Source of the DNA: an uncultured Prevotella sp.
GTDB taxonomy: Bacteria; Bacteroidota; Bacteroidia; Bacteroidales; Bacteroidaceae
Length of the DNA stretch: 64,000 nucleotides
Assembly (NCBI GenBank): GCA_900314935.1
Contig: OMXE01000014.1
Coordinates: 1-64,000, forward strand
Direction: 5' to 3'
The position numbers were made by a program, and so were the translations under genes. The stretch's first letter is position 1, and every line of letters begins with the position of its first letter. This document shows, piece by piece, positions 15,992 through 32,403 of this stretch. Below the pieces are notes generated by a model, which was given only the letters and a program-made list of their open reading frames with translations, searched no databases and was not told where the DNA came from.

Positions 15992-16022
15992 TTTGTTTTT
16001 TCCTCACTTATTCGTACCTTTG
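15992..16022 (+). promoter_or_regulatory. Promoter of the GH25 gene with almost no leader
   Basis: TTTG 15992-15995 and TACCTTTG 16015-16022 are 19 bp apart. The ATG at 16029 is only six bases after the -7 box, so the transcript is expected to be leaderless or nearly so. Confidence 0.65.
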
Positions 16023-16028
16023 CAAAAT

Positions 16029-16730
16029 ATGAAGAATTTGAAAAAGCTATTATTGGTCATTTTCACCATGATCTCAGCAAGCATCAGCGCACAGGAAAGC
16101 TATATTCTGTGCGAGGATACCTGTACGCATATTCATGGCATCGACCTCAGTCATTACCAGGGACAGGTGTTCTGGGAGACAGTCGGCGATAACACGAAGA
16201 TGCAGTACGTCTATCTGAAGGCTACTGAGGGTGGTGACCGAATCGATGATAAATACGCACAGAATATTGAACTGGCTCATCGCTACGGACTGAAGGTGGG
16301 AAGCTACCATTTCTTCCGTCCGAAGTCGGAGCTGAAGAAACAACTGGAGAACTTCATGGCGCAATGCCGTCCAGGCGACCAGGATCTGATTCCCATGATT
16401 GATGTGGAGTCAACAGGCGGTCTTTCAGACGAACAGTTCTGCGACTCGCTGATTCGGTTCCTGGAGATGGTGGGACATGCCTACCGGCAGAAACCGCTGG
16501 TCTATACGGGCCGTAACTTCTACAACAAGCATCTCATCGGACAGATTGACGACTATCCGTTGATGGTGGCCATGTATGCCAATGAGCCTCCGGTATTGGC
16601 TGATGATCGTGACTATTTGATATGGCAATATACGGCAAAAGGAAGAATCAACGGCATCAACACCTATGTGGACAAGAGTAGGTTCATGGGTAGGCACAGC
16701 ATGCGCGAAATCCGTTTCCGACACCGATAG
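16029..16730 (+). CDS. Secreted GH25 lysozyme-like muramidase
   Basis: 233 residues. The N-terminal signal peptide ends near S-A-Q (residue 22). Family GH25 marks: H-G-I-D-L-S-H-Y-Q-G (catalytic Asp region), Y-V-Y-L-K-A-T-E-G, G-S-Y-H-F-F-R, P-M-I-D-V-E-S (Asp/Glu pair) and a C-terminal L-I-W-Q-Y. Such enzymes cleave the MurNAc-GlcNAc bond of peptidoglycan; in the periplasm this would serve wall turnover. The ATG at 16029 is chosen over the longer frame because it begins the signal peptide and follows the promoter. No extra binding domains. Confidence 0.92.
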   Translation: MKNLKKLLLVIFTMISASISAQESYILCEDTCTHIHGIDLSHYQGQVFWETVGDNTKMQYVYLKATEGGDRIDDKYAQNIELAHRYGLKVGSYHFFRPKSELKKQLENFMAQCRPGDQDLIPMIDVESTGGLSDEQFCDSLIRFLEMVGHAYRQKPLVYTGRNFYNKHLIGQIDDYPLMVAMYANEPPVLADDRDYLIWQYTAKGRINGINTYVDKSRFMGRHSMREIRFRHR

Positions 16731-17942: not shown

Positions 17943-17981
17943 TTGTCAGAAGAAAGAATTTTGAAAATATTTCCAAAAATG

Positions 17982-18013
17982 TTTGGTCATGTCAAAATAA
18001 AGCATTACCTTTG
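17982..18013 (+). promoter_or_regulatory. Promoter of the tRNA-Ser/tRNA-Glu pair
   Basis: TTTG 17982-17985 and TACCTTTG 18006-18013 are 20 bp apart. The tRNA-Ser begins at 18062. Confidence 0.6.
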
Positions 18014-18061
18014 CACTCGCATTTGAGGAGATACCCCTCGGTTTCTAACACGAAGCATCTT

Positions 18062-18148
18062 GGAAGGATGGGTGAGTGGCTGAAACCAGCAGTTTGCTAA
18101 ACTGCCGTACGGGTTCCCGTACCGGGGGTTCGAATCCCCCTCCTTCCG
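18062..18148 (+). tRNA. tRNA-Ser (anticodon GCU)
   Basis: A seven-base acceptor stem GGAAGGA/TCCTTCC, an anticodon stem GCAGT/ACTGC with loop TTGCTAA (anticodon GCU, reading AGC/AGU), a long variable arm as expected for serine, and a T arm with GGTTCGAATCC. The 3' CCA is not fully encoded. It pairs with the tRNA-Glu that follows on the same transcript. Confidence 0.93.
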
Positions 18149-18172
18149 CAGGGGTCTTTGAGAATGCCCGTT

Positions 18173-18247
18173 GGTGGATTCATCTAATGGTTAGGATACA
18201 AGATTCTCAATCTTGGCATAGGGGTTCGATTCCCCTATCCACTACCA
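18173..18247 (+). tRNA. tRNA-Glu (anticodon CUC)
   Basis: Acceptor GGTGGAT pairs with ATCCACT (G-U at the first pair). The anticodon stem is CAAGA/TCTTG with loop TTCTCAA, giving CUC. The T loop is GTTCGATTC. CCA is encoded at 18245-18247. Confidence 0.9.
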
Positions 18248-18248
18248 A

Positions 18249-18273
18249 GGGGTTACACAACCCCTTTTTTTAT
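18249..18273 (+). terminator. Terminator after the tRNA pair
   Basis: GGGGTT-ACAC-AACCCC followed by a run of seven T directly after the encoded CCA of tRNA-Glu. Confidence 0.85.
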
Positions 18274-18338
18274 GCCCGAAAATTTGCTCTTTTCATTCCA
18301 ATTGTTTATTTTTGCAGCATCATTGATCAACAATCAAC

Positions 18339-18935
18339 ATGTCTGAAACCAATCATCAAACCGACATCACCAGTCAGGTGCAACTTCTCTGCAAGGCTGT
18401 GGAGGAAGCCATTGGAATTGAACAGCTGACACGAAGCGACTTCGACGTCCTACAACTGCAGATATTCAACCGTCTGCACATTCATATCAGCGCCACGACA
18501 CTCAAGCGTGTATGGGGCTATGTGACCACCGAAAGCGAACCACGCCGCAGAACACTCGACACACTAGCGAGATTCGTAGGCTACAACAGCTTCGACCACT
18601 TCTGCCAAACAAAACACGACGGAGATGTTGAAGCCAGTAACCCTATCCTTTCCAGGAATATCAACGTGGAGAAAGACCTCTCCATCGACGATACTATCAC
18701 CCTGTTCTGGAACCCTGATCGTAAATGTACAGTGAGGTACCTAGGAGACAACCACTTCGTCGTGGTGGAATCAGAGAACACTCGTCTTATCAAAGGAGCC
18801 ACCTTTCAGTGTAGTCTCATCATCGAGGGGGAGCAGCTCTACCTCAACAATCTCATTCTCAACGATCAGCAGCCCATCGCATACGTATGCGGTAAGAAAG
18901 GCGGCATCCGCTACCAGTTCCACAAACACGCATAA
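18339..18935 (+). CDS. Small HTH-like protein upstream of the kinase gene
   Basis: 198 residues. The N-terminal third has a pattern common in uncharacterised Bacteroidota proteins: I-S-A-T-T-L-K-R-V-W-G-Y, then R-R-R-T-L-D-T-L-A-R-F-V-G-Y-N-S-F-D-H-F. It reads as two helix-turn-helix-like units. The C-terminal half (about 110-198) is beta-rich, possibly a small barrel. A promoter TATTTTTG lies near 18307-18314. It is 29 bp upstream of the Ser/Thr kinase gene, so the two are probably co-transcribed. It may be a regulator or kinase substrate; neither is shown. Confidence 0.6.
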   Translation: MSETNHQTDITSQVQLLCKAVEEAIGIEQLTRSDFDVLQLQIFNRLHIHISATTLKRVWGYVTTESEPRRRTLDTLARFVGYNSFDHFCQTKHDGDVEASNPILSRNINVEKDLSIDDTITLFWNPDRKCTVRYLGDNHFVVVESENTRLIKGATFQCSLIIEGEQLYLNNLILNDQQPIAYVCGKKGGIRYQFHKHA

Positions 18936-18964
18936 TATTCAATTCTCCATTTTCAATTTAACAA

Positions 18965-21286
18965 GTGTCTTCATCCATTTCAGAAATCATTACCGCCGAC
19001 TACGAGGGTGTTTCACGTGCCTTCACCGAGATCACTCCATTACCGTCCAAGGGCTATTGCGACCTCTTCAAGGCCAAGCGCTACGGACGGTGGTTCCTGC
19101 TGAAATGCCTCAAGCAGCAACACCATAGCGATCCCACCTACCAACAGCTGCTTAGAAAAGAAATGGAGGTGCTTATGTCTATGCAGCACCATGCCATTAT
19201 ACAGGCATACGGAATGGAGATGGTTAAGTTGTATGAAAGCGACAAACGCACATGCATCATTGCCGAATGGATCGATGGCTCTACCCTCGCCGACTTCCTC
19301 AAGAAAAAGTCCGATCAAGCTACACGTCGAAGGATCGCCGATGAACTTGTAGATGCCGTGGCCTACATACACCAGCAGCAGATTGTACACCGTGACCTCA
19401 AGCCATCGAACATCATGGTAACACATAACGGCTGTAACGTAAAGGTCATCGATTTCGGACTGGCCGACACCGACAGTCATGCCATCCTAAAACAGCCTGC
19501 AGGAACGCTGAAATACATGGCTCCTGAACAAGCCAACACGGCTGCGCCTGATACCCGCAACGATATCTATTCATTAGGAATCATCCTTCAGGAACTACAA
19601 CTTGGTGGAAGAAACTACCGACGGATTATTGACCGATGCCTCAAACCCATTGAACGCAGATATCCCAACGCAGAGGCCTTGAAGAAAGACCTTATCAAAG
19701 CGAGACAAAACAACTGGCGCACAATGGCTTTGGTTATACTGGCACTTGTGGCGCTCGCTGCGGTATTCCTACTCATCAGAGGACTCCGTCAGCGTGCTCA
19801 ACAACTGGAACAAGAGGCGGTACAGATGACCATCAGAATGAAGATTCTCAACCACGAGCTAATTGAATTCGAAGATCCTAACGTGGCACAGATATGCGTC
19901 AGTCAGTGGGATACCGATCATGACGGATATCTCAGTTTTGCAGAAGCACAGGCCGTAACCGATCTCGGCAATGTCTTCACGAACGATGCACTGATCACCT
20001 CCTTCAACGAACTAAAATACTTCACCAGCCTTACCAATATCGCAGCTGATGCTTTCCACAATTGTCACAGTCTCGAAACCATCACGCTACCCAATACTAT
20101 CCGCTTTATACGAAAGAGCGCCTTCCGTCACACGGGCCTCCGCTCCTTTACCTTTCCTGCCACTGTAGCTGGCGTCGGCGACAGCATTCTCAACGATTGT
20201 CCATCACTCGAGACCGTCATTTTCGAGTCGGTGCCGCCCAACATCAACGAAGGCTCAAAACACCTGCAGAACTGTCCGATGCTAACCACCGTTTTCATTC
20301 CACAACACGCTTTCCACAAGAGAATCTATAAACACTCATGGGTAGAGGTTTCACATCTCATGACCGACCATATACTCTTCCAAGACCCCGTTGTGGAAGG
20401 AATATGCCTCGACCATTGGGATGTCAATCACGACCGACAGCTGTCCATCAGCGAAGCCCAGGCGGTGACCGAACTGGGCACGGCCTTCACCCGCAATCCA
20501 CTGATACGCCATTTCCCGGAACTGCGGTTCTTCACGGGACTGCAGACCATCGATGTCAGTGCCTTTGATGAGTGCACTGCCTTGGAAACGATTATTCTTC
20601 CTATCACCATTAAAACCATCGGAGACAGGGCTTTTGGCACATGTACTAAACTGGAGTACATCGAACTGCCGCATCACTTGGAAAAGATTGGCAGTTATGC
20701 TTTCACTGATGCTGCTCTCCGCAGTATCTACCTCCCCAACAACGTTAGTGAATTAGCACTACATGTGTTTTCTTGTTGTAAACAGCTTACTAACGTCACT
20801 GTCAGCCCCAACAACCCCATTTACGACAGTCGCGACAACTGCAACGCCATCATTCACACCGCAACCAACACCATGGTAAGCGGAGGCGTTACAGCCACCG
20901 TCCCCGCCAGCGTTACAGACTTCTCTGATGATGCCCTTGTCGGTACACGCCGTGTAAGCTTCACGATACCGCCGCAAATCCATCACATCGGTCACTGGAG
21001 CCTCAATTTCCAACGTATAAGTTACATTTATTGTCAGTCGCCCGTGCCTCCCACCTACGACTCACAAAACGGCTCCAATGTGATGTTCATCTATCATGAC
21101 GACCAACCCAAAGACCCTATCATCTATGTTCCCTATGGCTCACTCGAAGCCTACCGCGAAGCAGAGGGCTGGAGCTACTATGCCGAATCCATCGTGGAAT
21201 ACCCTGCACCGCCAGCACCCTACTCCACCCTCTTTACTCCCGTATTCCTCACCCTACCTGACCCAGTTCAACACACTTGGCACTGA
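18965..21286 (+). CDS. Transmembrane Ser/Thr protein kinase with EF-hand loops and BspA-type LRRs
   Basis: 773 residues, GTG start. The Hanks-type kinase domain (about 20-240) has K47 in L-L-K, H-R-D144-L-K-P-S-N, I-D163-F-G and G-T-L-K-Y-M-A-P-E. The glycine-rich loop is weak. One TM helix spans about 254-272. Outside are two repeats, each led by a 12-residue EF-hand-type loop: D-T-D-H-D-G-Y-L-S-F-A-E (near 320) and D-V-N-H-D-R-Q-L-S-I-S-E (near 485). Each is followed by LRR_5/BspA-type leucine-rich units such as L-E-T-I-x-L-P. The C-terminus is Pro-rich. The layout suggests a receptor kinase whose outer LRRs sense a surface ligand and may bind calcium. Confidence 0.88.
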   Translation: MSSSISEIITADYEGVSRAFTEITPLPSKGYCDLFKAKRYGRWFLLKCLKQQHHSDPTYQQLLRKEMEVLMSMQHHAIIQAYGMEMVKLYESDKRTCIIAEWIDGSTLADFLKKKSDQATRRRIADELVDAVAYIHQQQIVHRDLKPSNIMVTHNGCNVKVIDFGLADTDSHAILKQPAGTLKYMAPEQANTAAPDTRNDIYSLGIILQELQLGGRNYRRIIDRCLKPIERRYPNAEALKKDLIKARQNNWRTMALVILALVALAAVFLLIRGLRQRAQQLEQEAVQMTIRMKILNHELIEFEDPNVAQICVSQWDTDHDGYLSFAEAQAVTDLGNVFTNDALITSFNELKYFTSLTNIAADAFHNCHSLETITLPNTIRFIRKSAFRHTGLRSFTFPATVAGVGDSILNDCPSLETVIFESVPPNINEGSKHLQNCPMLTTVFIPQHAFHKRIYKHSWVEVSHLMTDHILFQDPVVEGICLDHWDVNHDRQLSISEAQAVTELGTAFTRNPLIRHFPELRFFTGLQTIDVSAFDECTALETIILPITIKTIGDRAFGTCTKLEYIELPHHLEKIGSYAFTDAALRSIYLPNNVSELALHVFSCCKQLTNVTVSPNNPIYDSRDNCNAIIHTATNTMVSGGVTATVPASVTDFSDDALVGTRRVSFTIPPQIHHIGHWSLNFQRISYIYCQSPVPPTYDSQNGSNVMFIYHDDQPKDPIIYVPYGSLEAYREAEGWSYYAESIVEYPAPPAPYSTLFTPVFLTLPDPVQHTWH

Positions 21287-21476
21287 GCCAATATGATACT
21301 CTGTTAGGGTCAGAATTTTCAAAAACACTGCCATTTCTGTCATTACTGTGGAAAATACTACAATTTGGACCACTTTGAACCACTTATTATTGCCCACATA
21401 TCATTATTTATGTATATTTTTGCCATTGTAAATAAAAAAGTCGGCTCACGATGGAACAAGTTTCGAAAAAAAAGCT

Positions 21477-21484
21477 TATCTTTG
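21477..21484 (+). promoter_or_regulatory. Promoter -7 box of the FtsK/WXG-like operon
   Basis: TATCTTTG followed by CAG, typical of Bacteroidota promoters. The -33 region (near 21461) is weak. The first gene starts 286 bp downstream, leaving a long leader. The part of the gap before it (21287-21470) holds no gene. Confidence 0.6.
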
Positions 21485-21489
21485 CAGTA

Positions 21490-21769
21490 GTGTTGATTGA
21501 ATAATCATCCCTTCGAGGGAAGCTATCAAACTTTGACCCGCCAGAGAATCTGCAAATTCAAGGTGAATGGGTAAGAAGTTGAGAAGCTGTTCCTCCTGTT
21601 ATAGTATACGTAGAGTCATTACCCCGCGGTAATACCCTATTGTACATAAACAGGTGTGAGCCGATTTCCATTCTTACATTCACGGGTATTGCAGAACCTT
21701 CTGGCTAAGCGTGGCAAGGAGGTTCACACCTCTGTGGTATACAATTAAAGAACTAATAACAAAAGACAA
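21490..21769 (+). ncRNA. Long structured 5' leader of the FtsK/WXG-like operon
   Basis: About 280 nt between a promoter and the first short ORF, with strong potential structure. A hairpin CCC-TTCGA-GGG lies near 21510. A perfect hairpin ATTACC-CCGC-GGTAAT spans 21618-21633. An 11-bp long-range stem joins 21652-21662 to 21721-21731 (one G-U). The palindrome GTATAC occurs on both sides (21604-21609 and 21737-21742) and could close the whole domain as a multi-branched junction. No known riboswitch core is recognised. It may be a cis-regulatory RNA, an independent small RNA, or both. Confidence 0.5.
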
Positions 21770-21976
21770 ATGAAAACTTACATTTTACAGGCTCCGCGGA
21801 CATTTGTTGATGCGGGAATTCCCAAAGGTTATATCCTTCAAGTCATTTCATCAAGATCTGGCACGCAACCAGATGCCTCAGAGGTTAGAGAGGCATTACG
21901 TAGAGCAGGTTTTAGCAAAAGAGCTGAAAGTTGGGCTGCCCCTGGTAATTGGATTGTAAAAGAGATAAAGATATAA
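21770..21976 (+). CDS. Small protein heading the FtsK/WXG-like operon
   Basis: 68 residues, starting K-T-Y-I-L-Q-A-P-R. It ends 2 bp before the ATG of the ATPase gene. The central region G-I-P-K-G-Y-I-L-Q-V and S-E-V-R-E-A-L-R-R-A-G-F looks like a compact alpha/beta fold of the kind seen in small nucleic-acid or protein adaptors. No family recognised. Its tight coupling to the ATPase argues that it is a component or regulator of the same system. Confidence 0.6.
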   Translation: MKTYILQAPRTFVDAGIPKGYILQVISSRSGTQPDASEVREALRRAGFSKRAESWAAPGNWIVKEIKI

Positions 21977-21978
21977 CT

Positions 21979-24624
21979 ATGGCAAGCTATTACGACACAA
22001 ACAAAGCCACCTCGGCAAACTCCAAAGATTTCATCCCCGATGGTTCTGATCCACAGCACTTTCCATTTGAAGGGTTATACATTGGTGAACTCGGTGGTGG
22101 CGCAGTTCAATTACCTGCCTTAGTAGACATCTGCGAGGTAAAAGCATTCTGCATGCTCTATAACAATGAGGATACACGTACACGTGTCAATCATGTGTTG
22201 GAAAAATTGGCATGGAGAATCGCCATAACTACTCCAGCCAACCTTTGCGACATCGTATTGTATAACGGGGGTAATGCGGGCGATTCTTTCAACACGCATT
22301 CCCGACTGAACAAGTATTTGGTGGATGATCGTCAGGAACGTGTCTTCTTTGATGGCAATGCAGAAGAGTTCACCATGTTGGTAGACGATGCGTATACTTC
22401 AATCGTTCAGCGTATGTCTGCCATCAATTGTGCCGGGAAACACTCGCTGGTTGAATTGAACGAATCACTGGGACGTGATGCCCGACTGAAGTATCAGTTC
22501 TTTATCCTGACAGACTTTCCACACCACATAAAGCCACAAACGTTGCAGAAACTTTCACAGATTATTGACTCTGGCAACCGTGCTGGCATCTATATGATGA
22601 TGAGTTGGGACATAAATGCAGAGTTTGAGGACCAGTCTTTCGATGCCCAATCCATGTTGAAGAAGATGGAACTGCTCTTTCCACAAGGTGATGCCTTCCT
22701 TTTCAACAATTCAGGTCACGATGAGATTCTCAATCGCTTCTCATTGATGCTCGATGATGCTGCTATCGATCCTGCCGAAGCCAGCACTTGGGCTTCATAT
22801 ATTAATAAGGTAGTGGAAGTAGCCAAGAAGAATGCCCGTCCATCAGCCTTAAAGCAGGACTTCAATCTTCTTGAAAGCACACCATACGAACCCGTTATGT
22901 CTGAGATTAGCGTCACAGTCGGTCTGGATATCAATGATAAGCATCCTGTTACCATCCGCTTCAATTCAGGCGACTATATCCACGCTTTCATTCTTGGACA
23001 GTCTGGTTCTGGTAAATCAGTCATGCTGAACAATATCATCAGCAGTGCTATCCTGAAATATTCTCCAGAAGACCTGATGCTTTACTTAATGGACTTCAAA
23101 GGCGTTGAGTTTAACCGTTATCGAGGCATTAAACATACAAAAGCCGTACTCGTTGACAATAGCGATCCACAGATGACACTCGAAGTGCTTCGTGAGTTAC
23201 GCGAAGAGAACAAACGGCGTGTAAAACTCTGGCAGAAAGAATGTGTCAATAATATCAATGGATATAATAAGAAGTACCCCAACAGACGATTACCTCAGAT
23301 TCTCTTTGTCGCTGACGAATGTCAGGTGATGTTCAAAGAGAATGTAAGCAATGGTACAGAGCGTCTGATTCAGCAGGAGATTGCAGAAATACTGAATATA
23401 ATTGCCACACAAGGTCGAAGCCAAGGAATACACATGCTTTTGGCCACTCAGCAACTTGACGAGACGGACATCTCAGGACAGATACTGAAAAATCTCACCG
23501 AATGTTTCTTGCTGATGAGTGCTCCAAGCGATTCCGACCGATTGGTACCCGACAGCAGCGATAAGACCAGCCGTCAGATAACAGGTATGGCTTGCTACTA
23601 CCATAAACGAGAACTGCAGAGCCAGGTCCAGACTTTTTATGCCAACGATGAAGAACTTGCTGATGCCATTGAGTCCGCACAAGCAAAGGCTTTGGATGTT
23701 CCAGGAAATGGCGAACATTATTTCTGTGGCTCGGCACTTTACTACCTTGACCAGAACAAGGAGCTGATCGTACAGAACCAACTTGGCTGTCCCATTGCTC
23801 TCATCGGTCAGAACATCGGCATCAATGCTGGAGCGACAACCATCCCTTTGCGAAAAGATTTCTTTGAACACATTTTGTTCTGGGGAGCCAACAAGGAAGA
23901 ACAGACAACGGGTGTACTGATGAATGCACTGATCTCACTGATGATGTCTTATCAACAGCAAGAGAGAACTTGTCGTTTTCTTGTCATCGACTGTCTGCCT
24001 ACCACGAACAGCCGTTATAAACCCGTGCTTACACACCTTGCAGACAAAGGATTGTGCCAACTGATAGAAAGACAAAGCAGTGGCCATGCGTTGAAGGAAC
24101 TGGTCGATGACGTCAAAGCAGGGTTCGCCATGCCTACTATCCTTGCTATCATAGGTAGCGAACGTTATATCGAAATCAAGAGGAAAATGAAACTTGTACA
24201 AGGAACAGAGACAATGACTGAAGAAACTTCCCTTGATGACGAGATCGGTTTCGACATGGAAGCCCTCGGCGACCTGATGGGTACATCTGATGAAACATCA
24301 TCTGGCGATATGACCTTCCCGCAAGCACTGATGTATCTGCTCGACGAAGGGCCTATGCAGGATGTTCATATACTACTTCAGATTGACAAGCCCAGCAATA
24401 TTCTCTTTGGTGATGAATACGAAGTGGAGGCAGCCAACAAGTTCCGCCACAAAGTGATTCTCCGTTCAGAGAACAAATACATTCAGCCGCTACGCTTCAG
24501 TCAGGACATTGATGTGGAAGTGCTGAGCGATGAAGAAGAGCATCTTCGAGCCTACTATTATCCTGATGGCGACGATCCTGTGCTCTTTACTCCTTATCAG
24601 ATGCCCGATAATGAAATCATTTGA
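21979..24624 (+). CDS. FtsK/SpoIIIE-family ATPase, EccC-like (T7SS-like)
   Basis: 881 residues from ATG 21979. Three ATPase-sized segments can be traced. The N-terminal one (about 40-290) lacks Walker A. The middle one (about 310-570) has Walker A G340-Q-S-G-S-G-K346-S347 and Walker B I-L-F-V-A-D446-E447, then A-T-Q-Q-L as the sensor strand, as in FtsK/SpoIIIE. The third (about 610-800) aligns at F-W-G-A-N-K-E-E-Q-T-T-G (a degenerate Walker A without GKT) and F-L-V-I-D (Walker B-like). No TM helix or gamma winged helix is obvious, unlike FtsK. Multiple ATPase modules plus a neighbouring WXG100-like gene resemble EccC/EssC, but here the middle module is the intact one. Confidence 0.8.
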   Translation: MASYYDTNKATSANSKDFIPDGSDPQHFPFEGLYIGELGGGAVQLPALVDICEVKAFCMLYNNEDTRTRVNHVLEKLAWRIAITTPANLCDIVLYNGGNAGDSFNTHSRLNKYLVDDRQERVFFDGNAEEFTMLVDDAYTSIVQRMSAINCAGKHSLVELNESLGRDARLKYQFFILTDFPHHIKPQTLQKLSQIIDSGNRAGIYMMMSWDINAEFEDQSFDAQSMLKKMELLFPQGDAFLFNNSGHDEILNRFSLMLDDAAIDPAEASTWASYINKVVEVAKKNARPSALKQDFNLLESTPYEPVMSEISVTVGLDINDKHPVTIRFNSGDYIHAFILGQSGSGKSVMLNNIISSAILKYSPEDLMLYLMDFKGVEFNRYRGIKHTKAVLVDNSDPQMTLEVLRELREENKRRVKLWQKECVNNINGYNKKYPNRRLPQILFVADECQVMFKENVSNGTERLIQQEIAEILNIIATQGRSQGIHMLLATQQLDETDISGQILKNLTECFLLMSAPSDSDRLVPDSSDKTSRQITGMACYYHKRELQSQVQTFYANDEELADAIESAQAKALDVPGNGEHYFCGSALYYLDQNKELIVQNQLGCPIALIGQNIGINAGATTIPLRKDFFEHILFWGANKEEQTTGVLMNALISLMMSYQQQERTCRFLVIDCLPTTNSRYKPVLTHLADKGLCQLIERQSSGHALKELVDDVKAGFAMPTILAIIGSERYIEIKRKMKLVQGTETMTEETSLDDEIGFDMEALGDLMGTSDETSSGDMTFPQALMYLLDEGPMQDVHILLQIDKPSNILFGDEYEVEAANKFRHKVILRSENKYIQPLRFSQDIDVEVLSDEEEHLRAYYYPDGDDPVLFTPYQMPDNEII

Positions 24625-24650
24625 ACAAATAACCCTAAAACAATAGTAAT

Positions 24651-24938
24651 ATGGCTGACAACAGTATGATGGGTAATGTTACCCAAGTTGAACAATATGG
24701 AAAAAACCTCGGTAAGGTTCAGCTACAGACACGCGAGATTTTCAAGAAGCTACAACAGCAAACCAAGAGTATCGGTAATGTCTGGAAAGACGACCAGTTC
24801 AAGAATTTCGAACAGGAATTCAATCAGAGTATTGTCAAAAACATCAACGAGATTACCATGAAGATGGAACTCATGGCAAACTATGTGGCCAAGATGGTGG
24901 AGTTCCATCGTCAAGCACAAAACCAGAAAATATATTGA
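24651..24938 (+). CDS. WXG100-like small helical protein
   Basis: 95 residues with no signal peptide, predicted as two long helices joined by a turn at V-W45-K-D-D. Size, helical hairpin pattern and the single Trp at about residue 45 match WXG100/ESAT-6 proteins; the usual W-x-G turn is W-K-D. The N-terminal helix is Gln/Lys-rich, the C-terminal helix M-K-M-E-L-M-A-N-Y-V-A-K-M-V is amphipathic. It directly follows the FtsK/EccC-like ATPase, the classical partner that recognises WXG100 substrates. It could be the secreted or structural substrate. Family call is by eye. Confidence 0.65.
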   Translation: MADNSMMGNVTQVEQYGKNLGKVQLQTREIFKKLQQQTKSIGNVWKDDQFKNFEQEFNQSIVKNINEITMKMELMANYVAKMVEFHRQAQNQKIY

Positions 24939-24959
24939 TCATAACTAAAAACAAAGAAT

Positions 24960-25427
24960 ATGCCAGTAGATTTTTCATTCCTTCAGAATGCGGCACCAGC
25001 AAAGCCAGAACAGCCTGAGCAGAAGCCAGACACTGGTTTTGCTAATGTAACGGTGCGCGTAGATGCCGACTGCTTCATGCAGTGCGACGGAGAGTTTGTG
25101 GATGTTCCTTTGAAAGCGGGACAGGTTACCAAGACAGAATTGCCAACAGGCCAACATCTGCTTGAGTTCTTAAGCACAGAGAACCCAAGCGTAAAGGTAG
25201 AGAAGATGGTGGATTTCCCAGAGTCAGAAAAGAACTATCTCATAGTGATCAATGAACTGAAAGCAGCAGTTGCGCCACCGATGCCTCAGGGACAACCCCA
25301 TCAGGCAGCTCCTCAGAATCCATTCCTGGATCAGCTGAACCAGATACTGTGGAATAATCCGCTTATGCCTCCCCCAATGCCTGGCATGCCGCAGACACCC
25401 CCTCCAATACCTGAAGAAAACAAATAG
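24960..25427 (+). CDS. PEGA-like small protein with Pro-rich tail
   Basis: 155 residues. After a short N-terminal segment, residues about 28-105 form a beta-rich unit (V-T-V-R-V-D-A-D-C-F-M-Q-C-D-G then L-P-T-G-Q-H-L-L-E-F), the pattern of PEGA domains: a D-G-E-x-V-G/D strand followed by L-P-x-G-x-H. The C-terminal 45 residues are Pro/Met/Gln-rich (P-P-M-P, P-G-M-P), which matches the tail of the next protein and may bind its GYF-like domain, a fold that recognises Pro-rich peptides. No signal peptide. Confidence 0.6.
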   Translation: MPVDFSFLQNAAPAKPEQPEQKPDTGFANVTVRVDADCFMQCDGEFVDVPLKAGQVTKTELPTGQHLLEFLSTENPSVKVEKMVDFPESEKNYLIVINELKAAVAPPMPQGQPHQAAPQNPFLDQLNQILWNNPLMPPPMPGMPQTPPPIPEENK

Positions 25428-25456
25428 TATTTGTAAACCATCAAACGATATAAACT

Positions 25457-26533
25457 ATGAGTATTTTCGGATTCAGTTCAAAGAAAGAAGTAGAAGAGAA
25501 AGAACGCTTAGCAAGAGAAGCTGAGAAACGTGCCGTTCTTCAAGGTCAGCAAACAGACCTCTCCAACTTGGCCAAAGGTAGTCAGGTGAAGTTTTCAGTA
25601 CCATTTTTTGATGTCTTCGATCCTCGTTTTGAGAATTTTGGCGTTCCCATAGCAATTCATGGAATGTTGGTCTATGGCGTTGATGATATTTCCCGTTTCA
25701 ACAGTGTCAACAAGACGCAAAATATCAACGATGGCGTTTTCCAACAGAAACTACAGGGACAAGTTACCAAGTATGTCAAGGGCGTGGTAACAAATGCACC
25801 TGCAGACCATCAGATACCTGTAATGCAAATAGAACGAAAGATCTTGGAAATCAGCGAACTTGTTCAGCGATTTGTCACGCCCAAAATTGAGAGTTTATTT
25901 GGTGTTAATGTACGTAGCATTGATATCACCAATATCGTCGTTGATAAGGATAGTCGTGGCTATCGTGAACTGAAAGCCGTTACGACAGATCTTGAAAAAG
26001 ATGCACTACAGACTCGTTCCAGTCTCAACCTCGATGCCATGAAACGTCAGCAGGAAATGAGTCTTGGTGGACAGGAAGAAATGCAACGCATGCAGTTGGA
26101 ACACCAACGTGAGACTATGCGCATTCAGCGTGAAGAGCTGCAACGTGCCTCTCGCCTTCAGACAGAGACCAATTTCCTCGGTGCCCATCAGGCTAACCTC
26201 AATGCGGGAGTACAGACAGCACAGGCACAAGCACGTGGAGGAATGTTTGCGCAGCAAATGCCAGGGATGCCTCCTATGCCAGGGATGGGTGGAATGCCAC
26301 CCATGCCCGGTTCGGTTCCACAAGTAAGTTACATGGTTGGAGTCAATGGACAACAAATTGGCCCTTGCGACTGGAACCAACTGGAGCAGATGGTACAACA
26401 AGGACAGCTCACTCATCAGACATACGTTTGGAAACAAGGCATGCCGCAATGGCAATTCGCCGGTGAAGTGCAGGAACTTACGCCCTTGTTCCAAGGCGAT
26501 GCTCCACAAATGCCGCCCATGCCAAGAATATGA
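25457..26533 (+). CDS. SPFH-domain (YdjI-like) protein with C-terminal GYF-like domain
   Basis: 358 residues. Residues about 35-190 resemble an SPFH/virion-core (YdjI) domain, with G-S-Q-V-K-F-S-V-P and a long helical stretch (about 180-240, E-E-M-Q-R-M-Q-L-E-H-Q-R-E). A Pro/Met/Gly linker (about 255-290) leads to a GYF_2-like domain: Y-M-V-G-V-N-G-Q-Q-I-G-P-C-D-W-N-Q-L-E-Q-M-V, then Q-T-Y-V-W-K-Q-G-M-P-Q-W. SPFH proteins form membrane-associated rings, and YdjI acts with WXG100/T7SS-linked phage-shock proteins in Bacillus. This supports a membrane machine together with the ATPase and the WXG100-like protein. Confidence 0.75.
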   Translation: MSIFGFSSKKEVEEKERLAREAEKRAVLQGQQTDLSNLAKGSQVKFSVPFFDVFDPRFENFGVPIAIHGMLVYGVDDISRFNSVNKTQNINDGVFQQKLQGQVTKYVKGVVTNAPADHQIPVMQIERKILEISELVQRFVTPKIESLFGVNVRSIDITNIVVDKDSRGYRELKAVTTDLEKDALQTRSSLNLDAMKRQQEMSLGGQEEMQRMQLEHQRETMRIQREELQRASRLQTETNFLGAHQANLNAGVQTAQAQARGGMFAQQMPGMPPMPGMGGMPPMPGSVPQVSYMVGVNGQQIGPCDWNQLEQMVQQGQLTHQTYVWKQGMPQWQFAGEVQELTPLFQGDAPQMPPMPRI

Positions 26534-26615
26534 GCCAATTCAGTTATAGCAAAATAGCATCGGTAACAGATATAATTCAATTGAATTTTTCATTAACATT
26601 ATAAAATAATAGATT

Positions 26616-27713
26616 ATGGGACTACTTGATAATTTAAAAGATCAAGCATTAAAGAATGCCAATCTTAACAAACTGACAGAGCAGGCTTTGAAAAAAGCAA
26701 GTGAACTAGTTGACAAAGCTCAGGAAAAACTGGGTGATAATCAGTCGGAGAATGAATCACCAACTAAAGCACCATTAACAGATATCAAACCTTCTATAAA
26801 TGAGCAAATGCCAGACCCAAGGAAAGAAGAAAAGGTTTTTGAGGAAAAAGTTGAAAGGCCAAGTTCTCAAAACCAGATGTTTTCCAAAGAACTAGAAGCT
26901 TTGATACAGGCTACGCTTGAAGATGGTGTCCTTGAGGATTATGAGAAAGCTGCACTTGTTAGGCGCGCTCAAGCTGAAGGTGTAGACCTCGCCGAACTGG
27001 AGATATATATCAACAGTATTCTCCAAAGACGGAAGAAAGAACAGGCAAGAAAAGAAGATGAAAGGCAAGCTGCTATCGACCAGAAGAAGAAAGAAGCGTT
27101 CGGACGAGTATGCCCAAATTGTGGGAAGCAAGTACCTCCTTTAACACTGAAATGCGAATGTGGGTTTGAGTTTACTGCAAAAACTCATATTTCGTCAACA
27201 GAATTGTTATCAAATAAGATAGATGAGATTATGAATCAAGTCGGACTAGCTGATGACAAAATAAATAAAATTTGTGAAACCATAAAACTCTTCCCTGTTC
27301 CAAACTCAAAAGAAGACATTGTTGATTTTCTAGCTCTAAGTGTCCCAAATGCCAGAATTAAAGGCGGAATCCTAAGTACTATTAAGGGACAAGTTTTCGT
27401 TATAATTGCTGCTAGTTGTATTATTGGTATTGTGGTCGGAGGAACCTTGGCCATGGGGTTAAATGATGGATTATCTGGATTTCTCTCAGGGGCTATTTAT
27501 TGTTCTCTTATATTTGGTGCCTGGGGATTAGGCATTTATTTTATTTTACATAAAGTATTTGGCTTAGGTAAAGACACTCTTCGTCACAATAAAAAAGCTA
27601 TGGCGTGGCGATCAAAGTTTGATCAAGTTATGATAAAAGCCAGGAGCCTGCGTGGTGATCCAGAATTCACCCAACAACTTGATTATTATGAGAACTTGTT
27701 AAACAAAAAATAA
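26616..27713 (+). CDS. Zinc-ribbon protein with two C-terminal TM helices
   Basis: 365 residues. The N-terminal 75 residues are amphipathic and charged. Residues about 88-132 (E-L-E-A-L-I-Q-A-T-L-E-D-G-V-L-E-D-Y-E, then A-L-V-R-R-A-Q-A-E-G-V-D) form a short helical, TerB-like unit. A Cys4 zinc ribbon follows at about 166-190 (C-P-N-C, C-E-C), then two TM helices near 260-280 and 290-315. The ribbon and membrane anchor recall the gene at 16761. Codon use is more A/T-rich than the SPFH gene. The 82-bp gap before it may hold its own promoter, so it is either the last member of the operon or the start of a new unit. Confidence 0.6.
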   Translation: MGLLDNLKDQALKNANLNKLTEQALKKASELVDKAQEKLGDNQSENESPTKAPLTDIKPSINEQMPDPRKEEKVFEEKVERPSSQNQMFSKELEALIQATLEDGVLEDYEKAALVRRAQAEGVDLAELEIYINSILQRRKKEQARKEDERQAAIDQKKKEAFGRVCPNCGKQVPPLTLKCECGFEFTAKTHISSTELLSNKIDEIMNQVGLADDKINKICETIKLFPVPNSKEDIVDFLALSVPNARIKGGILSTIKGQVFVIIAASCIIGIVVGGTLAMGLNDGLSGFLSGAIYCSLIFGAWGLGIYFILHKVFGLGKDTLRHNKKAMAWRSKFDQVMIKARSLRGDPEFTQQLDYYENLLNKK

Positions 27714-27719
27714 TCTGTT

Positions 27720-28439
27720 ATGGAATTTGATATCTTGAAACAAAAGGATATTGACACGAGCGACAAAAGAAAATACTACGTGTATCGCCTGATAGACCCA
27801 CGAACTTTTCAAACATTTTATGTAGGAAAAGGTTGTGGCAACAGGGTCTTTCAACATGTGAAAGATGCAAAAATGCTGATTAATAAAGAAGAGGATGAAC
27901 TTTCACTCAAAATTAAGCTGATTACAGAGATTATTGCTTCTGGCAAAGAGGTCATAGCGGTCATTCATAGACGAGGATTAAACAACAAAGAAGCGTTGGA
28001 AGTTGAAGCTGCTCTGATTGATTGTTATCCTAACCTCACCAACATTCAGAGAGGTTACGGGTATGACCGTGGGGCTATTACAATCGATGATCTGAAAATT
28101 TTACAGGAAACAAAAGAATACACGGAACCTTCAGAACAATATATCATTATAAAAACAACCCCAGAAATAATACGTGACCGCGGCGGAATCTACGATGCTG
28201 TTCGATATTGTTGGAGAGCAAGTTTTGATAAAGCGAAAAAATACAAATACGTTTTGGCTGTTGTGAATGGTATCGTTCGAGAAGTCTTCGAAGTAGAACG
28301 TTGGTATCAATATAATGCGACACGAATCGCATTTGAAGGGGCACCGACACAGGATTCTATATCTACGCTAAAAGACTTGCGTATTCCTGATAAGTATAAA
28401 CAGAAAGGAGCTTCAAATCCATTTTTGTATAAGAAATAA
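27720..28439 (+). CDS. GIY-YIG nuclease-domain protein
   Basis: 239 residues, starting 6 bp after the zinc-ribbon gene. The N-terminal part (about 15-110) has Y-Y-V-Y-R-L-I-D-P (GIY-equivalent) and F-Y-V-G-K-G (YIG-equivalent), then N-R-V-F-Q-H-V and an E-A-A-L-I-D segment, the pattern of LEM3/ankyrin-type GIY-YIG nucleases. The rest (about 115-239) is a beta-rich domain that may bind DNA or a partner (A-R-Y-C-W-R-A near the middle). In context it could be an effector of the upstream machine or part of a mobile nuclease cassette. Codon use is A/T-rich. Confidence 0.72.
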   Translation: MEFDILKQKDIDTSDKRKYYVYRLIDPRTFQTFYVGKGCGNRVFQHVKDAKMLINKEEDELSLKIKLITEIIASGKEVIAVIHRRGLNNKEALEVEAALIDCYPNLTNIQRGYGYDRGAITIDDLKILQETKEYTEPSEQYIIIKTTPEIIRDRGGIYDAVRYCWRASFDKAKKYKYVLAVVNGIVREVFEVERWYQYNATRIAFEGAPTQDSISTLKDLRIPDKYKQKGASNPFLYKK

Positions 28440-28545: not shown

Positions 28546-28827
28546 ATGACATACAAATTCACAGCATGCAGAGTATCGGGTGACGGCAATGCCGTGTTTC
28601 CTGATGAGATCATCATCGACGATGAGGAGGAAGTGGTTACGTTCCGTAAACCTCATCTTATCGGTTGCAAGGAGAGCAGAGTAAGATTCGGGGCAATAGG
28701 TAGCGTAACCGTGCAGAAGCACCTGCTCTTTGCCGACATCTATATCGAAACTCGTGGCGGTCGTGATATCATCGCCCATGGCTTCACCCGCTCCGATGCC
28801 GAGAAGATAGCTGCGTTGTTACGATAA
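28546..28827 (+). CDS. Small beta-rich protein, PH-like fold
   Basis: 93 residues, mostly strands with a final helix D-A-E-K-I-A-A-L-L. The pattern E-V-V-T-F-R-K-P then R-V-R-F-G-A-I-G-S-V-T-V-Q and D-I-Y-I-E-T resembles small bacterial PH-like domains. No catalytic residues. Preceded by 106 bp without a gene. Function unknown. Confidence 0.5.
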   Translation: MTYKFTACRVSGDGNAVFPDEIIIDDEEEVVTFRKPHLIGCKESRVRFGAIGSVTVQKHLLFADIYIETRGGRDIIAHGFTRSDAEKIAALLR

Positions 28828-28873: not shown

Positions 28874-29098
28874 ATGACAAACGAACAGATACGACAACTA
28901 ACCAATGAAGCACGGGCGTTGCAGCGAGAGTTACAGACAATAACGGATCCTGCTGAACGAAAAAAGATGGCACGGAAGATGAATGATTTGTTTTCCGAAG
29001 CCAGTGCCATAAGGAAACAGGCGAAACACCGCCATAACTTAGAAGAGAGCATTGAGCGGGAGTTCATCAGCATAAAAGCAAATCTGGAAGATGAATAA
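28874..29098 (+). CDS. Small coiled-coil protein
   Basis: 74 residues, almost wholly helical and charged, with heptads such as I-R-Q-L-T-N-E-A-R-A-L-Q-R-E-L. The middle has D-P-A-E-R-K-K-M-A-R-K-M. No signal or TM. Could be an adaptor or assembly factor. Function not recognisable. Confidence 0.45.
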   Translation: MTNEQIRQLTNEARALQRELQTITDPAERKKMARKMNDLFSEASAIRKQAKHRHNLEESIEREFISIKANLEDE

Positions 29099-29217: not shown

Positions 29218-30627
29218 ATGGATTATACTGCAGCAATACAACGGTTCAATGCCGACAAAAGAATCTCTCAGCTTCATACGAAATACGAGTTGGGGTCGTT
29301 TTTGAATTATCTCTCAGTATCACGGCGAGAGATGTCTCATAGCAAATTCTTAGCAGAGTTGCTCAAAGAAGATTCTTTTCATGGAACTGGTGCGCTCCCC
29401 TTGCAGTTGTTTATGGAGGCTATACTCGAACGTGCAATTAAACAGGACACACGATTGATCGAATGTCCTGACAAGAGAGTTGTATTCCCTTCACTCAAGA
29501 GCGCCATCATGAATAGGAACCTCTCCCTCTCTGATATAGAGGTGACTGCCGCGGAGTGTTTTTCTGACAAGGATAGCGACATTGGTCGAGTAGATATTTT
29601 GGTCAAGTGTCGCGTAAAGCCACTCGCGCGTGAGGATGGTAAGACTGTAGAGTACATCAACATTATCATTGAGAATAAATTATATGACCAAGAGTTTGAC
29701 AGACAGACAGAGAAATACTACAAACACTTCAACGCGTTCCTGAAAAACGAAAGTGCAGGACGTGTGGACTCATCAGCACAGAAAGGTGGTCCGCGTGGAT
29801 TATATAATCTGTATGTCTATCTCACTTCTGCTGCTCCTTCAGATATTGATGGACTTAAAGAACCCATCTGTAAATGCAAGGAGTTTGTGCAAATCTGTTA
29901 TCAGGACATACTTGACCGAGTTCTCGACCCCTTGCTTGAACAAAAAACTCTTTCTCTGCGAGGTCGATTCTTTATTGAAGAGTATAAGCGCTCATTAGGT
30001 TTTTCGTATGAAAATTTAGAGATTTACTCATATGAAGGAGGAGGAAAACAATCTTTGAACGTCAAGACAACCATCATGGCAATAAGTAAAAAAGAAAGTG
30101 ATGAACTATACCAATTATGGAGCGACTACAAGGAATTATTCAAAGCTGCTATCAATGAGAAGAATAAACAAGATGACTTTAACGTTGATGTCGACAGTAG
30201 TAACATCACTAACAAACGTACCCTCTACGAATATAAGGGACAACCTTTTACCATGAGTCGTCTCGTTGAAGCAATCATACTTGACCATCTGCCTGAATGC
30301 CGGATGGATGATATGAATCAGCTATTCAAAGATGTTGTAAACTGTGGAATTATAACCGATGATGCAAAATCCTCTTACTTTGAGAGAATTGAGGTAATCA
30401 AGACCAAAGATTATTATCCGGTTTGCGTCTTTAAGCAATGGACAGAAAACGGTCAATATAAGTTCAGCGATTTTTGCAAAAAGGTCAAGGAGTTGGGATG
30501 GTATGACGTGAAAGAATACGAGGAAGAACAACTATCTTATGTGGACTCTCTGATGCTTGTGGAATTCTATACAAAACATGAGAAACTGTTGACAACTGCA
30601 ATGGAGGTCATCCGACACACACAATGA
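29218..30627 (+). CDS. PD-(D/E)XK nuclease-family protein (PDDEXK_4-type)
   Basis: 469 residues. The N-terminal region has a signature common to the family, S-H-S-K-F-L-A-E-L-L (about 40-50). The nuclease core shows R-V-D-I-L-V-K (about residue 126) and I-I-I-E-N-K-L (about 150), the D...E-x-K of PD-(D/E)XK nucleases. A further conserved-looking Y-L-T-S-A (about 200) follows. The C-terminal half (about 270-469) is unrelated to the core and may be the target-recognition part. Related PDDEXK_4 proteins occur in restriction- and defence-like loci. The gene carries the shared leader element. Confidence 0.75.
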   Translation: MDYTAAIQRFNADKRISQLHTKYELGSFLNYLSVSRREMSHSKFLAELLKEDSFHGTGALPLQLFMEAILERAIKQDTRLIECPDKRVVFPSLKSAIMNRNLSLSDIEVTAAECFSDKDSDIGRVDILVKCRVKPLAREDGKTVEYINIIIENKLYDQEFDRQTEKYYKHFNAFLKNESAGRVDSSAQKGGPRGLYNLYVYLTSAAPSDIDGLKEPICKCKEFVQICYQDILDRVLDPLLEQKTLSLRGRFFIEEYKRSLGFSYENLEIYSYEGGGKQSLNVKTTIMAISKKESDELYQLWSDYKELFKAAINEKNKQDDFNVDVDSSNITNKRTLYEYKGQPFTMSRLVEAIILDHLPECRMDDMNQLFKDVVNCGIITDDAKSSYFERIEVIKTKDYYPVCVFKQWTENGQYKFSDFCKKVKELGWYDVKEYEEEQLSYVDSLMLVEFYTKHEKLLTTAMEVIRHTQ

Positions 30628-30758
30628 TGATATCGGAAGTGATGTTGAAGCTCTTTTCAAACGGATCAATTGTCATCGCGACCGTACCACAGAACGCTTT
30701 GAAGGTATATAATCTAAAACTCTGATGACAAGCGAAAAGATACGACATAATATTGAAT
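30624..30758 (+). other. Short open stretch, possible gene remnant
   Basis: Between the nuclease stop and the next ATG are about 130 bp with two competing open frames of roughly 28-33 codons; one overlaps the stop of the nuclease gene (ATGATGA). Neither gives a recognisable product. I see nothing firm here beyond a possible remnant. Confidence 0.25.
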
Positions 30759-32375
30759 ATGAAAGGACTATCAAAATCACGGTACACCGCCTTCTGCCAA
30801 TGCCCGAAGAATCTATGGCTGAAGGTTTATAAGCCTGAGAAGGCAGCTGTCGACGAGGCACTGCAGGCACGTTTCGAGCAAGGAAATGTAGTGGGTGATC
30901 TGGCTATGGGCCTCTTTGGCGACTACAAGGAAGCCCATGCCAAGAAGCCTGACGGCAATCTTGATCTCAGCAAGATGGTGGAGCAGACAAAGCAGTGGAT
31001 GCAGGAAGGAGTGGACAACATCTGTGAAGCCTCGTTCTCGTTAGAAGGACACTACTGTGCTGTCGACATCCTGCGTAAGAACGGCAACGGATGGGACATC
31101 TACGAGGTGAAGAGTACCAGCTTCCCGGAATTCAATGGTCAGGAAGCGAAGTTGGAGAAGTATGCTCCAGATATCGCCTACCAGAAGTGGTTGCTCACCC
31201 AGTGTGATGTCAACGTAACAGGTACTTACCTTGTTTGTCTGAACAGCGACTACGTACGACATGGTGTTCTTGACATTCAGCAGTTGTTTGTCATCAACGA
31301 CATGAAGGAGATGGTGGATAACGAATATCTGAAAGTGCCCGCCAGTGTCAGTCTGGCTATGAAGGTCATCAACAATGAGCAAGAACCTGAAATCGACCTC
31401 ACTGAACACTGCATGAAACCCTACAGATGTGCATTTTTCGACTATTGCAAACGACAGCATGGCATTCCATCGCCATCAGTCTTCGATGTTTATGGTGGCA
31501 AGGGACGCGGTGGTTTCACCTTCAAGAAGAAACTCGACTGCTACAACCAAGGACTCATCACGTTCGATGATTTGCGTACGACGGATATCGGTCGCATCCA
31601 GAACATGCAGATTGAGGGAGCATTGACGGGGAAAGAGTTTATCAATCCTTCAGGTATACGCGAATTCTTGAAGACCCTCTCCTACCCTCTTTACTTCCTC
31701 GACTTCGAGACCATGCAGGATGCAATACCTCAGTACGAAGGAGCGAAGGTCTATGCGCAGATCACCTTCCAATATTCATTGCATATCAAGGCTGCGAGTG
31801 AGCGAGAGCAGAGCGATACTAGCATCGGCTCTGCCGAGCGTGAGCAGGCTCGACCGGAGGTCAAACCCAGCGAAAGTGCCCCTTACGATCATTGTGAGTT
31901 CCTGGCTCCCAGCGATGGCAATGACCCTCGTCGTGCTTTGGCCGACCAGCTATGTAAGGATATTCCCAAGGATGTCTGTACACTGGCATACAATAAACAG
32001 TTTGAGTGCGGACGCATTCGTGAGTTGGCAACGCTCTTTCCTGATCTGAGCGATCACTTGTTGAATATCGCTAACAACATCAAGGATCTGATCGATCCCT
32101 TCCGTGCTGGTGACTACTATGTTCCTGCTATGGGAGGTTCGTTCTCCATCAAGAGTGTGTTGCCAGCCCTCTTCCCTGATGATCCTGAACTCAACTATCA
32201 TAATCTCGATGAGCGTTGTCAGAACGGAGGCGATGCCATGACCATCTTCCCTCGCATCAAGGATATGGAGCCGGCAGAAGCTGAAGCCAGTCGTGAAGCC
32301 CTCCTCCGCTACTGCAAACTCGACACCTGGGCCATGGTGAAGGTGTGGCAGAAATTGAAAGAGATGGCAAAATAG
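30759..32375 (+). CDS. Cas4-like nuclease fused to a DUF2779/DEDD-type exonuclease region
   Basis: 538 residues from ATG 30759 (a TTG two codons upstream is less likely). The N-terminal half is Cas4/RecB-like: C13-x-C15 near the start, D in A-V-D-I-L-R (about 107), E-V-K in I-Y-E-V-K-S-T (about 120), and a C-terminal Cys cluster C-M-K-P-Y-R-C-A-F-F-D-Y-C (about 215-230) that together could hold an Fe-S cluster. The second half begins Y-F-L-D-F-E-T-M (about 310), the D-x-E of DEDD exonucleases (DUF2779), with A-Y-N-K-Q-F-E and a final D in K-L-D-T-W. At about residues 346-376 a repeat-derived segment is inserted in frame. No CRISPR array is nearby. Confidence 0.72.
   Translation: MKGLSKSRYTAFCQCPKNLWLKVYKPEKAAVDEALQARFEQGNVVGDLAMGLFGDYKEAHAKKPDGNLDLSKMVEQTKQWMQEGVDNICEASFSLEGHYCAVDILRKNGNGWDIYEVKSTSFPEFNGQEAKLEKYAPDIAYQKWLLTQCDVNVTGTYLVCLNSDYVRHGVLDIQQLFVINDMKEMVDNEYLKVPASVSLAMKVINNEQEPEIDLTEHCMKPYRCAFFDYCKRQHGIPSPSVFDVYGGKGRGGFTFKKKLDCYNQGLITFDDLRTTDIGRIQNMQIEGALTGKEFINPSGIREFLKTLSYPLYFLDFETMQDAIPQYEGAKVYAQITFQYSLHIKAASEREQSDTSIGSAEREQARPEVKPSESAPYDHCEFLAPSDGNDPRRALADQLCKDIPKDVCTLAYNKQFECGRIRELATLFPDLSDHLLNIANNIKDLIDPFRAGDYYVPAMGGSFSIKSVLPALFPDDPELNYHNLDERCQNGGDAMTIFPRIKDMEPAEAEASREALLRYCKLDTWAMVKVWQKLKEMAK
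31801..31880. repeat. REP-like palindrome inserted in frame in the exonuclease gene
   Basis: GCAGAGCGAT (31808-31817) and ATCGGCTCTGC (31824-31834) form an almost perfect hairpin around a 6-base loop, in a locally GC-rich tract (31795-31880). The frame stays open and adds roughly 30 residues rich in Glu, Arg, Ser (about 346-376 of the protein). Confidence 0.6.
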
Positions 32376-32403
32376 TAATAACTTTTAAATAGAATAATAG
32401 ACT

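Follow-up and report, generated by a model that had tools for sequence, protein, structure and literature searches.

Type VII secretion has mostly been described in Gram-positive bacteria and mycobacteria, and the locus studied here raises the question of whether a diderm of the Bacteroidales carries a related machine. It is a six-gene plus-strand cluster at 21770-27713 of a 64,000-nucleotide stretch (the window) of contig OMXE01000014.1, from an uncultured Prevotella sp. (GCA_900314935.1) whose genome is 3.1 Mb and 99.93% complete. The initial annotation, made from the letters of the window, had proposed that six tightly packed genes form one type VII/ESX-like complex for export, injection or membrane remodelling. 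The packing was borne out by the coordinates, with intergenic gaps of 2, 26, 21, 29, and 82 bp; the type VII/ESX-like reading as a whole was partly supported. By analogy with known systems, we consider it moderately likely that the cluster encodes a stripped-down, mobile type VII-like module, whose motor would drive a small helical hairpin protein through or onto the inner membrane.

The putative motor is an 881-aa FtsK-family ATPase (21979-24624, plus strand). It matched Pfam FtsK_SpoIIIE (1.3e-27), a label that would suit an ordinary DNA translocase of the FtsK kind set among unrelated genes. Among the NCBIfam models, EccCa (1.1e-24, 87 bits) and EssC (7.1e-21, 74 bits) scored ahead of FtsK (2.1e-15, 56 bits), the first two lying far under the full-length equivalog cut-offs of 509 and 778 bits, respectively. 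All 35 aligned family ATPases (35/35) matched the EccCa, EssC, and FtsK models, the best at 1e-31, 2.8e-28, and 9.7e-20, respectively. When the family profile was compared with solved structures, the matches were T. curvata EccC (6e-39), EccC5 (3.9e-32), YukB (1.2e-28), and then FtsK (9.3e-25). The T. curvata entry bears just the title 'Cell divisionFtsK/SpoIIIE', and we presume it to be EccC; three stretches of its chain each aligned to the middle module of the ATPase. Judged by these profiles, EccC/EssC are nearer relatives of the ATPase than FtsK is. A tree built on the active module, which contained no EccC, placed 21 family ATPases apart from the genome's own FtsK and from 25 viral-contig proteins of the FtsK family (the best-scoring 25 of 79), with support of 0.993-1.0.

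The ATPase comprises three modules (residues ~1-295, 296-600, and 601-881), and a Walker A motif (GQSGSGKS) occurs in the middle module only. Exactly one Walker A motif of the GK[ST] type was present in the window ATPase and in each of the 19 relatives checked (19/19). The C-terminal module (601-881) is degenerate, and hhalign related it to the middle module with a probability of 91.9%. The N-terminal module aligned weakly with the middle one (65.6%), and the status of residues ~1-295 as a degenerate module is weakly supported.

The gene that follows (24651-24938, plus strand) encodes a 95-aa protein. Its match to Pfam WXG100 (3.4e-4) scored 21.3 bits, short of the curated cut-off of 27.3 bits, and 12 of the 16 members of its family matched the same model at 0.01, the best at 1.5e-8. 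In the predicted structure (mean pLDDT 90.5), helices span residues 2-45 and 48-94 and Trp45 sits at the turn; this is the WXG100-kind hairpin that had been suspected from the sequence. The profile of the hairpin matched S. aureus EsxA (1.1e-7) and SAG1039 (8.9e-7); unrelated helical proteins are among the additional rows of this structure search with values above E 0.005. Its top row, the designed TIM barrel 7mcd, consisted of four weak repeat matches and was left uncounted. By profile and predicted fold, the protein is of the WXG100 type, being a helical hairpin of ~100 residues with a WXG-superfamily profile, as in the WXG100/Esx family. HP0062 of Helicobacter pylori (PDB 3fx7) is a WXG100-like hairpin of a Gram-negative bacterium.

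The literal W-x-G motif was absent from the hairpin, which carries W45-K-D47. A W-x-D motif was found in all 21 first hairpins of the loci described below and in 154/154 fetched close homologues, which are the best listed of 348 and 391 matches and at least 77% identical. Some homologues are titled 'WXG100 family type VII secretion target' at NCBI, with [Prevotella sp.] or [Bacteroidaceae bacterium] as source, and the hairpin was found in records of Candidatus Prevotella equi and of a Bacteroidaceae metagenome-assembled genome. At E 0.01, the Pfam WXG100 model matched a single protein in the genome; this was the operon hairpin, itself under the cut-off, which makes it a solo WXG-superfamily protein.

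We compared the window with loci found by an ATPase search (17 loci: L011, L012, L013, L048, L015, L025-L033, L036, L037, and L061) and by a hairpin search (L003, L004, and L047), giving 21 loci with the window. A W-x-D hairpin adjoined the ATPase in 17/17 ATPase-found loci, the window not counted, and an ATPase adjoined the hairpin in 3/3 hairpin-found loci; the next gene 3' of the ATPase was a W-x-D hairpin in 21/21 loci. Of 20 loci, 18 have a gap of 1-33 bp between the two genes; L029 has one of 139 bp, and in L037 the hairpin gene lies 18 bp behind the second ATPase piece. Six of the 21 first hairpins (L029, L036, L037, L047, L048, and L061) were outside the profile-building set, the weakest being that of L036 (E 0.0077). 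A control was provided by 79 viral-contig loci outside the family that were selected with the ATPase profile, and none of them (0/79) had a hairpin at E 0.01. The control was drawn from the best 80 of 140 contigs by ATPase profile, in which L061, with three hairpins, was the one family member; the window hairpin used as a single query gave no match on viral contigs.

Because of these neighbour counts (17/17, 3/3, and 0/79), the pairing of the EccC-like ATPase with the WXG100-type hairpin is beyond chance, and the two are a true pair, as the initial annotation had suggested. The same counts already contradict the view that the ATPase is a plain DNA translocase, since its homologues do not stand among unrelated neighbours: a hairpin adjoins the ATPase in all 21 family loci versus none of the 79 others. 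The clade is also separate from the 26 FtsK-family proteins compared. We regard a plain translocase as hardly credible.

The distribution of the module was patchy. The genome draws overlapped, and each included the window's own genome. The ATPase was detected in 6/200 genus and 4/344 order genomes at E 1e-30, and in 10/301 family genomes and 1/345 phylum genomes at E 1e-40. The hairpin profile matched 1/326 phylum genomes and 7/398 genus genomes, the latter being the six ATPase-positive genomes (of 200) and G1212, whose hairpins adjoin an ATPase too. No match was obtained for the ATPase among plasmid records at 1e-20 or for the hairpin among phage records at 1e-5.

A precedent is found in footnote 6 of Table 1 of Zhang et al. 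2012 (PMC3482391), which the initial annotation had missed, as it had the WXD motif and the possible downstream extension described below. This footnote names 'mobile versions of T7SS' (type VII secretion system) in bacteroidetes and other diderms, with solo WXG proteins and a YueA-like ATPase that has three FtsK/HerA modules, the middle alone being active; it includes no gene map. Our locus agrees with that description in its occurrence in Bacteroidetes, its solo WXG-type protein, and its three-module ATPase with only the middle module active. The WXD motif, the parts here called SPFH-GYF, Pro-rich, zinc-ribbon, and 68-aa proteins, and the coiled-coil/third-hairpin layout of relatives are, in contrast, absent from the available passages of that paper. 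Within the open-access literature searched, the kind is described only in this footnote, without experimental work. To this the present analysis adds a gene map, WXD as a signature, the pairing with its control, the variant with SPFH-GYF and zinc-ribbon proteins, and the links to PH and GYF.

The locus shares an EccC-like motor and a WXG100-type partner with T7SSa/ESX (EccC, EsxA/EsxB), and it could be viewed as a degenerate or split canonical T7SSa or T7SSb with the remaining core parts elsewhere in the genome. However, neither YukC/EssB (PF10140) nor YukD/EsaB (PF08817) had a match at E 0.1 in the genome, which is 99.93% complete; YukC was matched in four control genomes including B. subtilis, and YukD in the B. 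subtilis control. EccB, EccD, EccE, EsaA, and EssA were not found among the ten proteins of 16761-28439 with Pfam and NCBIfam, and a genome-wide search for them was not made. The initial observation that core T7SS parts are missing stands genome-wide for YukC and YukD. The one WXG100 match in the genome, and WXD instead of WXG in all fetched close homologues, also argue against a remnant of a canonical system, which we consider very improbable. Unlike T7SSa/ESX, whose EccC, like EssC, is membrane-bound (PMC11217815), the window motor has no transmembrane segment, its partner has WXD and no YxxxD/E tail, and no YukD match was found in the genome. An ATPase with a small WXG100 protein is the core shared with T7SSb and T7SSc-j (PMC11217815). 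These systems belong to Bacillota and Actinomycetota; the ATPases of the new subtypes each have four predicted NTPase domains, and most subtypes have a YukD-like protein (PMC11217815). The available portion of that paper contains none of the terms Bacteroid-, GYF, and SPFH.

The gene content of the 21 loci was compared. The window, L003, L004, and L011 are of one type, with the ATPase, one hairpin, a Pro-rich protein, an SPFH-GYF protein, and a zinc-ribbon protein; the SPFH-GYF and zinc-ribbon genes were not seen in L004. Most other loci contain the ATPase, the hairpin, a coiled-coil protein (mostly ~155-170 aa), and a third hairpin-like gene. The coiled-coil profile was found in 13/21 loci, 11 of which were used to build it, and the third hairpin was a separate gene in 12/21, seven of which were used for its profile. 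GYF was detected at six of the 21 loci by a home-made profile built on those loci (Pfam backs five), the SPFH profile at five, and the Pro-rich and zinc-ribbon proteins at four each, one zinc-ribbon match being weak. Thus, to join all six genes into one complex, as initially proposed, is too strong: the core of the module is the ATPase and the hairpin, and one variant is characterised by the SPFH-GYF, Pro-rich, and zinc-ribbon proteins. In L047, GYF_2 is fused to the N-terminus of the ATPase, which ties GYF to the motor. ThiF (9.8e-24) and Prok-JAB (4.5e-10) genes, parts of ubiquitin-like conjugation, lie beside this fusion (L047:4797-13357). A gene for an SprT-like metallopeptidase was seen shortly after the hairpin genes in L027 (7043-7480, 5.3e-10) and, by eye, in L013 (3288-3719), and an FRG domain was seen near L026.

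The first gene of the cluster (21770-21976, plus strand), directly upstream of the ATPase, encodes a conserved 68-aa protein without a known family; no Pfam match was obtained at E 1. It directly precedes the ATPase in L003 and L004 (64 and 69% identity), was found in 3/21 ATPase loci, all three of which were used for its profile, and was matched just once in the genome at E 0.01. The fourth gene (24960-25427, plus strand) encodes a 155-aa protein with a conserved start and a Pro-rich tail, and all four loci that have it were used for its profile. In L004, its front part is fused to BspA-type leucine-rich repeats (LRRs; LRR_5), in two copies. The label 'PEGA-like' was not confirmed: the window, L003, and L011 proteins matched neither PEGA nor any other Pfam family, and the search of solved structures gave nothing usable. 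A Ser/Thr kinase with LRRs (18965-21286) also matched the Pro-rich profile (9e-12), probably because the profile includes the L004 LRRs, and it was not counted. This kinase has one transmembrane segment and BspA-type LRRs and is preceded, within 18339-21286, by a 198-aa protein, a homologue of which (35%) lies upstream of the operon in L003 on the opposite strand.

The SPFH-like protein (25457-26533, plus strand) is likely a membrane scaffold. Its C-terminal GYF_2 domain (5.4e-18) agreed with the first description of an SPFH-GYF protein; its SPFH part was sub-threshold (Band_7_1, 3.3e-4, 20.8 of 24 bits). In its family, GYF_2 was matched by 4/4 members and Band_7_1 by 3/4 at 0.01, the L028 copy ending at a contig end. 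Compared with solved structures, it gave three weak matches, the sole GYF-like one at 0.12. The sixth gene (26616-27713, plus strand) encodes a conserved acidic, helical-looking segment, a zinc ribbon, and two predicted transmembrane helices (hydrophobic segments 260-278 and 289-307), likely a membrane anchor. The zinc ribbon and two helices described initially were upheld by these segments and by cysteines kept in 5/5 aligned copies; the Pfam match was sub-threshold (UPF0547, 21 of 29 bits). One homologue was found in L003 and three in L011, one of them apparently split. The L011 copies are interspersed with one GIY-YIG gene and one gene that is transposase-like by eye (L011:2054-8405), and the anchor gene is multiplied there.

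The operon may be longer than six genes, because a GIY-YIG gene (27720-28439, plus strand) starts 6 bp past the zinc-ribbon gene, and a downstream PH gene recurs in divergent relatives. The GIY-YIG nuclease-like protein matched the PD-T4-3 model (8.4e-57), and its L011 homologue (60%) likewise directly follows a zinc-ribbon gene. The 93-aa bacterial PH-domain-like protein (28546-28827, plus strand), a possible accessory of the module, is encoded within 6 kb of the ATPase in the window, L011, L033, and L061 (4/21); the latter two have distant ATPases. All four PH family members matched bPH_3 at E 0.1 (best 2.3e-6), the window copy at 0.0053, below the cut-off; solved structures gave no match. 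EsaC, with a PH-like fold, is named a T7SS part in the available text of PMC3482391.

We propose that the EccC-type motor would bind the WXD partner, a predicted hairpin and likely a dimer, and move it across or onto the inner membrane, perhaps together with other proteins. By analogy with type VII secretion, the hairpin may be a substrate or a gate of the motor. Because the motor has no helices of its own, docking at the inner membrane would fall to the SPFH-GYF, Pro-rich, and zinc-ribbon proteins; the GYF domain might read the Pro-rich tail, and the GIY-YIG and PH proteins might act with the motor.

Several observations weigh against this proposal, including the lack of YukC and YukD matches described above. 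Hydropathy analysis found no transmembrane segment in 14/20 ATPases (the window and 13/19 relatives) and one segment in the other six. The YxxxD/E motif was absent from the last 35 residues of the first hairpins (0/21), the coiled-coil proteins (0/11), and the aligned third hairpins (0/7). No LXG-like cargo was seen in the window operon, the downstream nuclease genes are also compatible with a defence island, and export of any member is not demonstrated in the open-access literature searched. The co-divergence of the pair belongs here as well. Hairpin identity was correlated with ATPase identity across 20 loci (r 0.70-0.75 by module). EccC binds EsxB near its C-terminal module. The C-terminal module was not singled out as co-diverging over these loci (partial r 0.10; 234/2000 permutations reach this value), and its partial r was -0.14 without the four type-A loci; the highest partial r was that of the N-terminal module over all loci (0.39) and of the middle module without type A (0.65). 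The C-terminal module as the hairpin-binding site, suggestive in the comparison of the window with L011, was therefore unsupported over the 20 loci and was rejected. Between the window and L003, the hairpin is 88% identical and the ATPase modules are 52-59% identical; between the window and L011, the active module is 92% identical and the hairpin 46%. The two proteins thus do not always diverge in step.

The main alternative is an intracellular conflict or membrane-stress module, in which the soluble ATPase and the hairpin would have an internal role, acting either on the inner membrane or on DNA that enters the cell, without export. The SPFH-GYF and zinc-ribbon proteins would then sense membrane damage, and GIY-YIG and other nucleases would be the effectors. 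An ATPase without a transmembrane segment, a hairpin without the YxxxD/E tail, and the patchy distribution are consistent with this alternative, as are the FRG domain near L026, the ThiF and JAB genes near L047, and the GIY-YIG gene 6 bp downstream, which is followed by two PDDEXK_4 proteins and a DUF2779/Cas4-like protein. However, the nearest relatives of the motor are export ATPases, its obligate partner comes from a family of exported proteins, GIY-YIG is encoded near just 2/21 ATPases, and the L037 locus has an LXG-like layout. We consider the conflict module possible but less likely than the type VII-like one.

For the type VII-like module, L037 and the LRR fusion of L004 offer hints of cargo only. 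In L037 (400-2318), a hairpin, a 470-aa coiled-coil protein, and a second WXD hairpin are encoded in a layout that resembles that of LXG proteins, here in Bacteroidales. The coiled-coil protein has a hydrophobic stretch and a long C-terminal extension, which is GNAT-like (7.9e-4, just below the cut-off) with a ParB-like end by eye. Solved structures gave only generic coiled coils for the coiled-coil partner. The family member of L061 (911-10883) lies on a contig filed as viral. Ahead of it are genes that look lipoprotein-like by eye, one for a TPR protein whose end, by eye, resembles an outer-membrane barrel, and one for a membrane coiled coil; these neighbours could include envelope components of some larger machine. 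A bolder and more doubtful extension is a diderm type VII lineage, in which a soluble EccC-type ATPase would be docked by an SPFH-GYF scaffold reading Pro-rich tails, the WXD hairpin would replace the WXG substrate, the PH protein would take the place of EsaC, and the cargo, exported or displayed, would be interchangeable proteins of the coiled-coil, LRR, or repeat type.

The flanks of the operon were also inspected. A GH25 gene (15993-16730) and an upstream zinc-ribbon protein (16761-17942) were rejected as operon parts; their homologues adjoin each other in 6/6 relatives, picked from 22/40 with a DNA match. In the same six relatives, tblastn found no counterpart of window open reading frames of at least 100 aa from 18339 to 41456, a size that leaves out the 95-aa hairpin. 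These relatives show the GH25/zinc-ribbon pair without the module and are not a clean empty site, because the hairpin is under the size limit, L140 is only 5.7 kb, and some flanks are rearranged. Two tRNA genes lie at 18062-18247, and no other RNA families were found in 15000-42000. An inverted repeat upstream (21427-21678), with a 9-bp exact core by eye, was discarded, being at chance level by a rough estimate. Downstream, 28874-29098 encodes a protein of 74 aa that weakly matched Effector-associated domain 9 (0.0065, under the cut-off), and at 29218-33921 two PDDEXK_4 nuclease-like proteins (PADLOC PDC-S26) flank the DUF2779/Cas4-like protein, a possible defence island. The GC content was 0.37-0.42 over ~26.5-37 kb (0.48 at 31.0-32.5 kb) and mostly 0.44-0.50 in the flanks; a tandem direct repeat of 22 bp in 3-4 copies lies in a low-GC stretch (36864-36966).

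If the WXD modules export proteins in Bacteroidales, the type VII core of motor and hairpin would be more widespread and simpler than thought, and a minimal machine could be studied through a single soluble ATPase and a single hairpin. If there is no export, the EccC/WXG100 pair would have been repurposed for an intracellular job, showing its capacity beyond secretion. Either outcome would inform how an ATPase and a hairpin cooperate.

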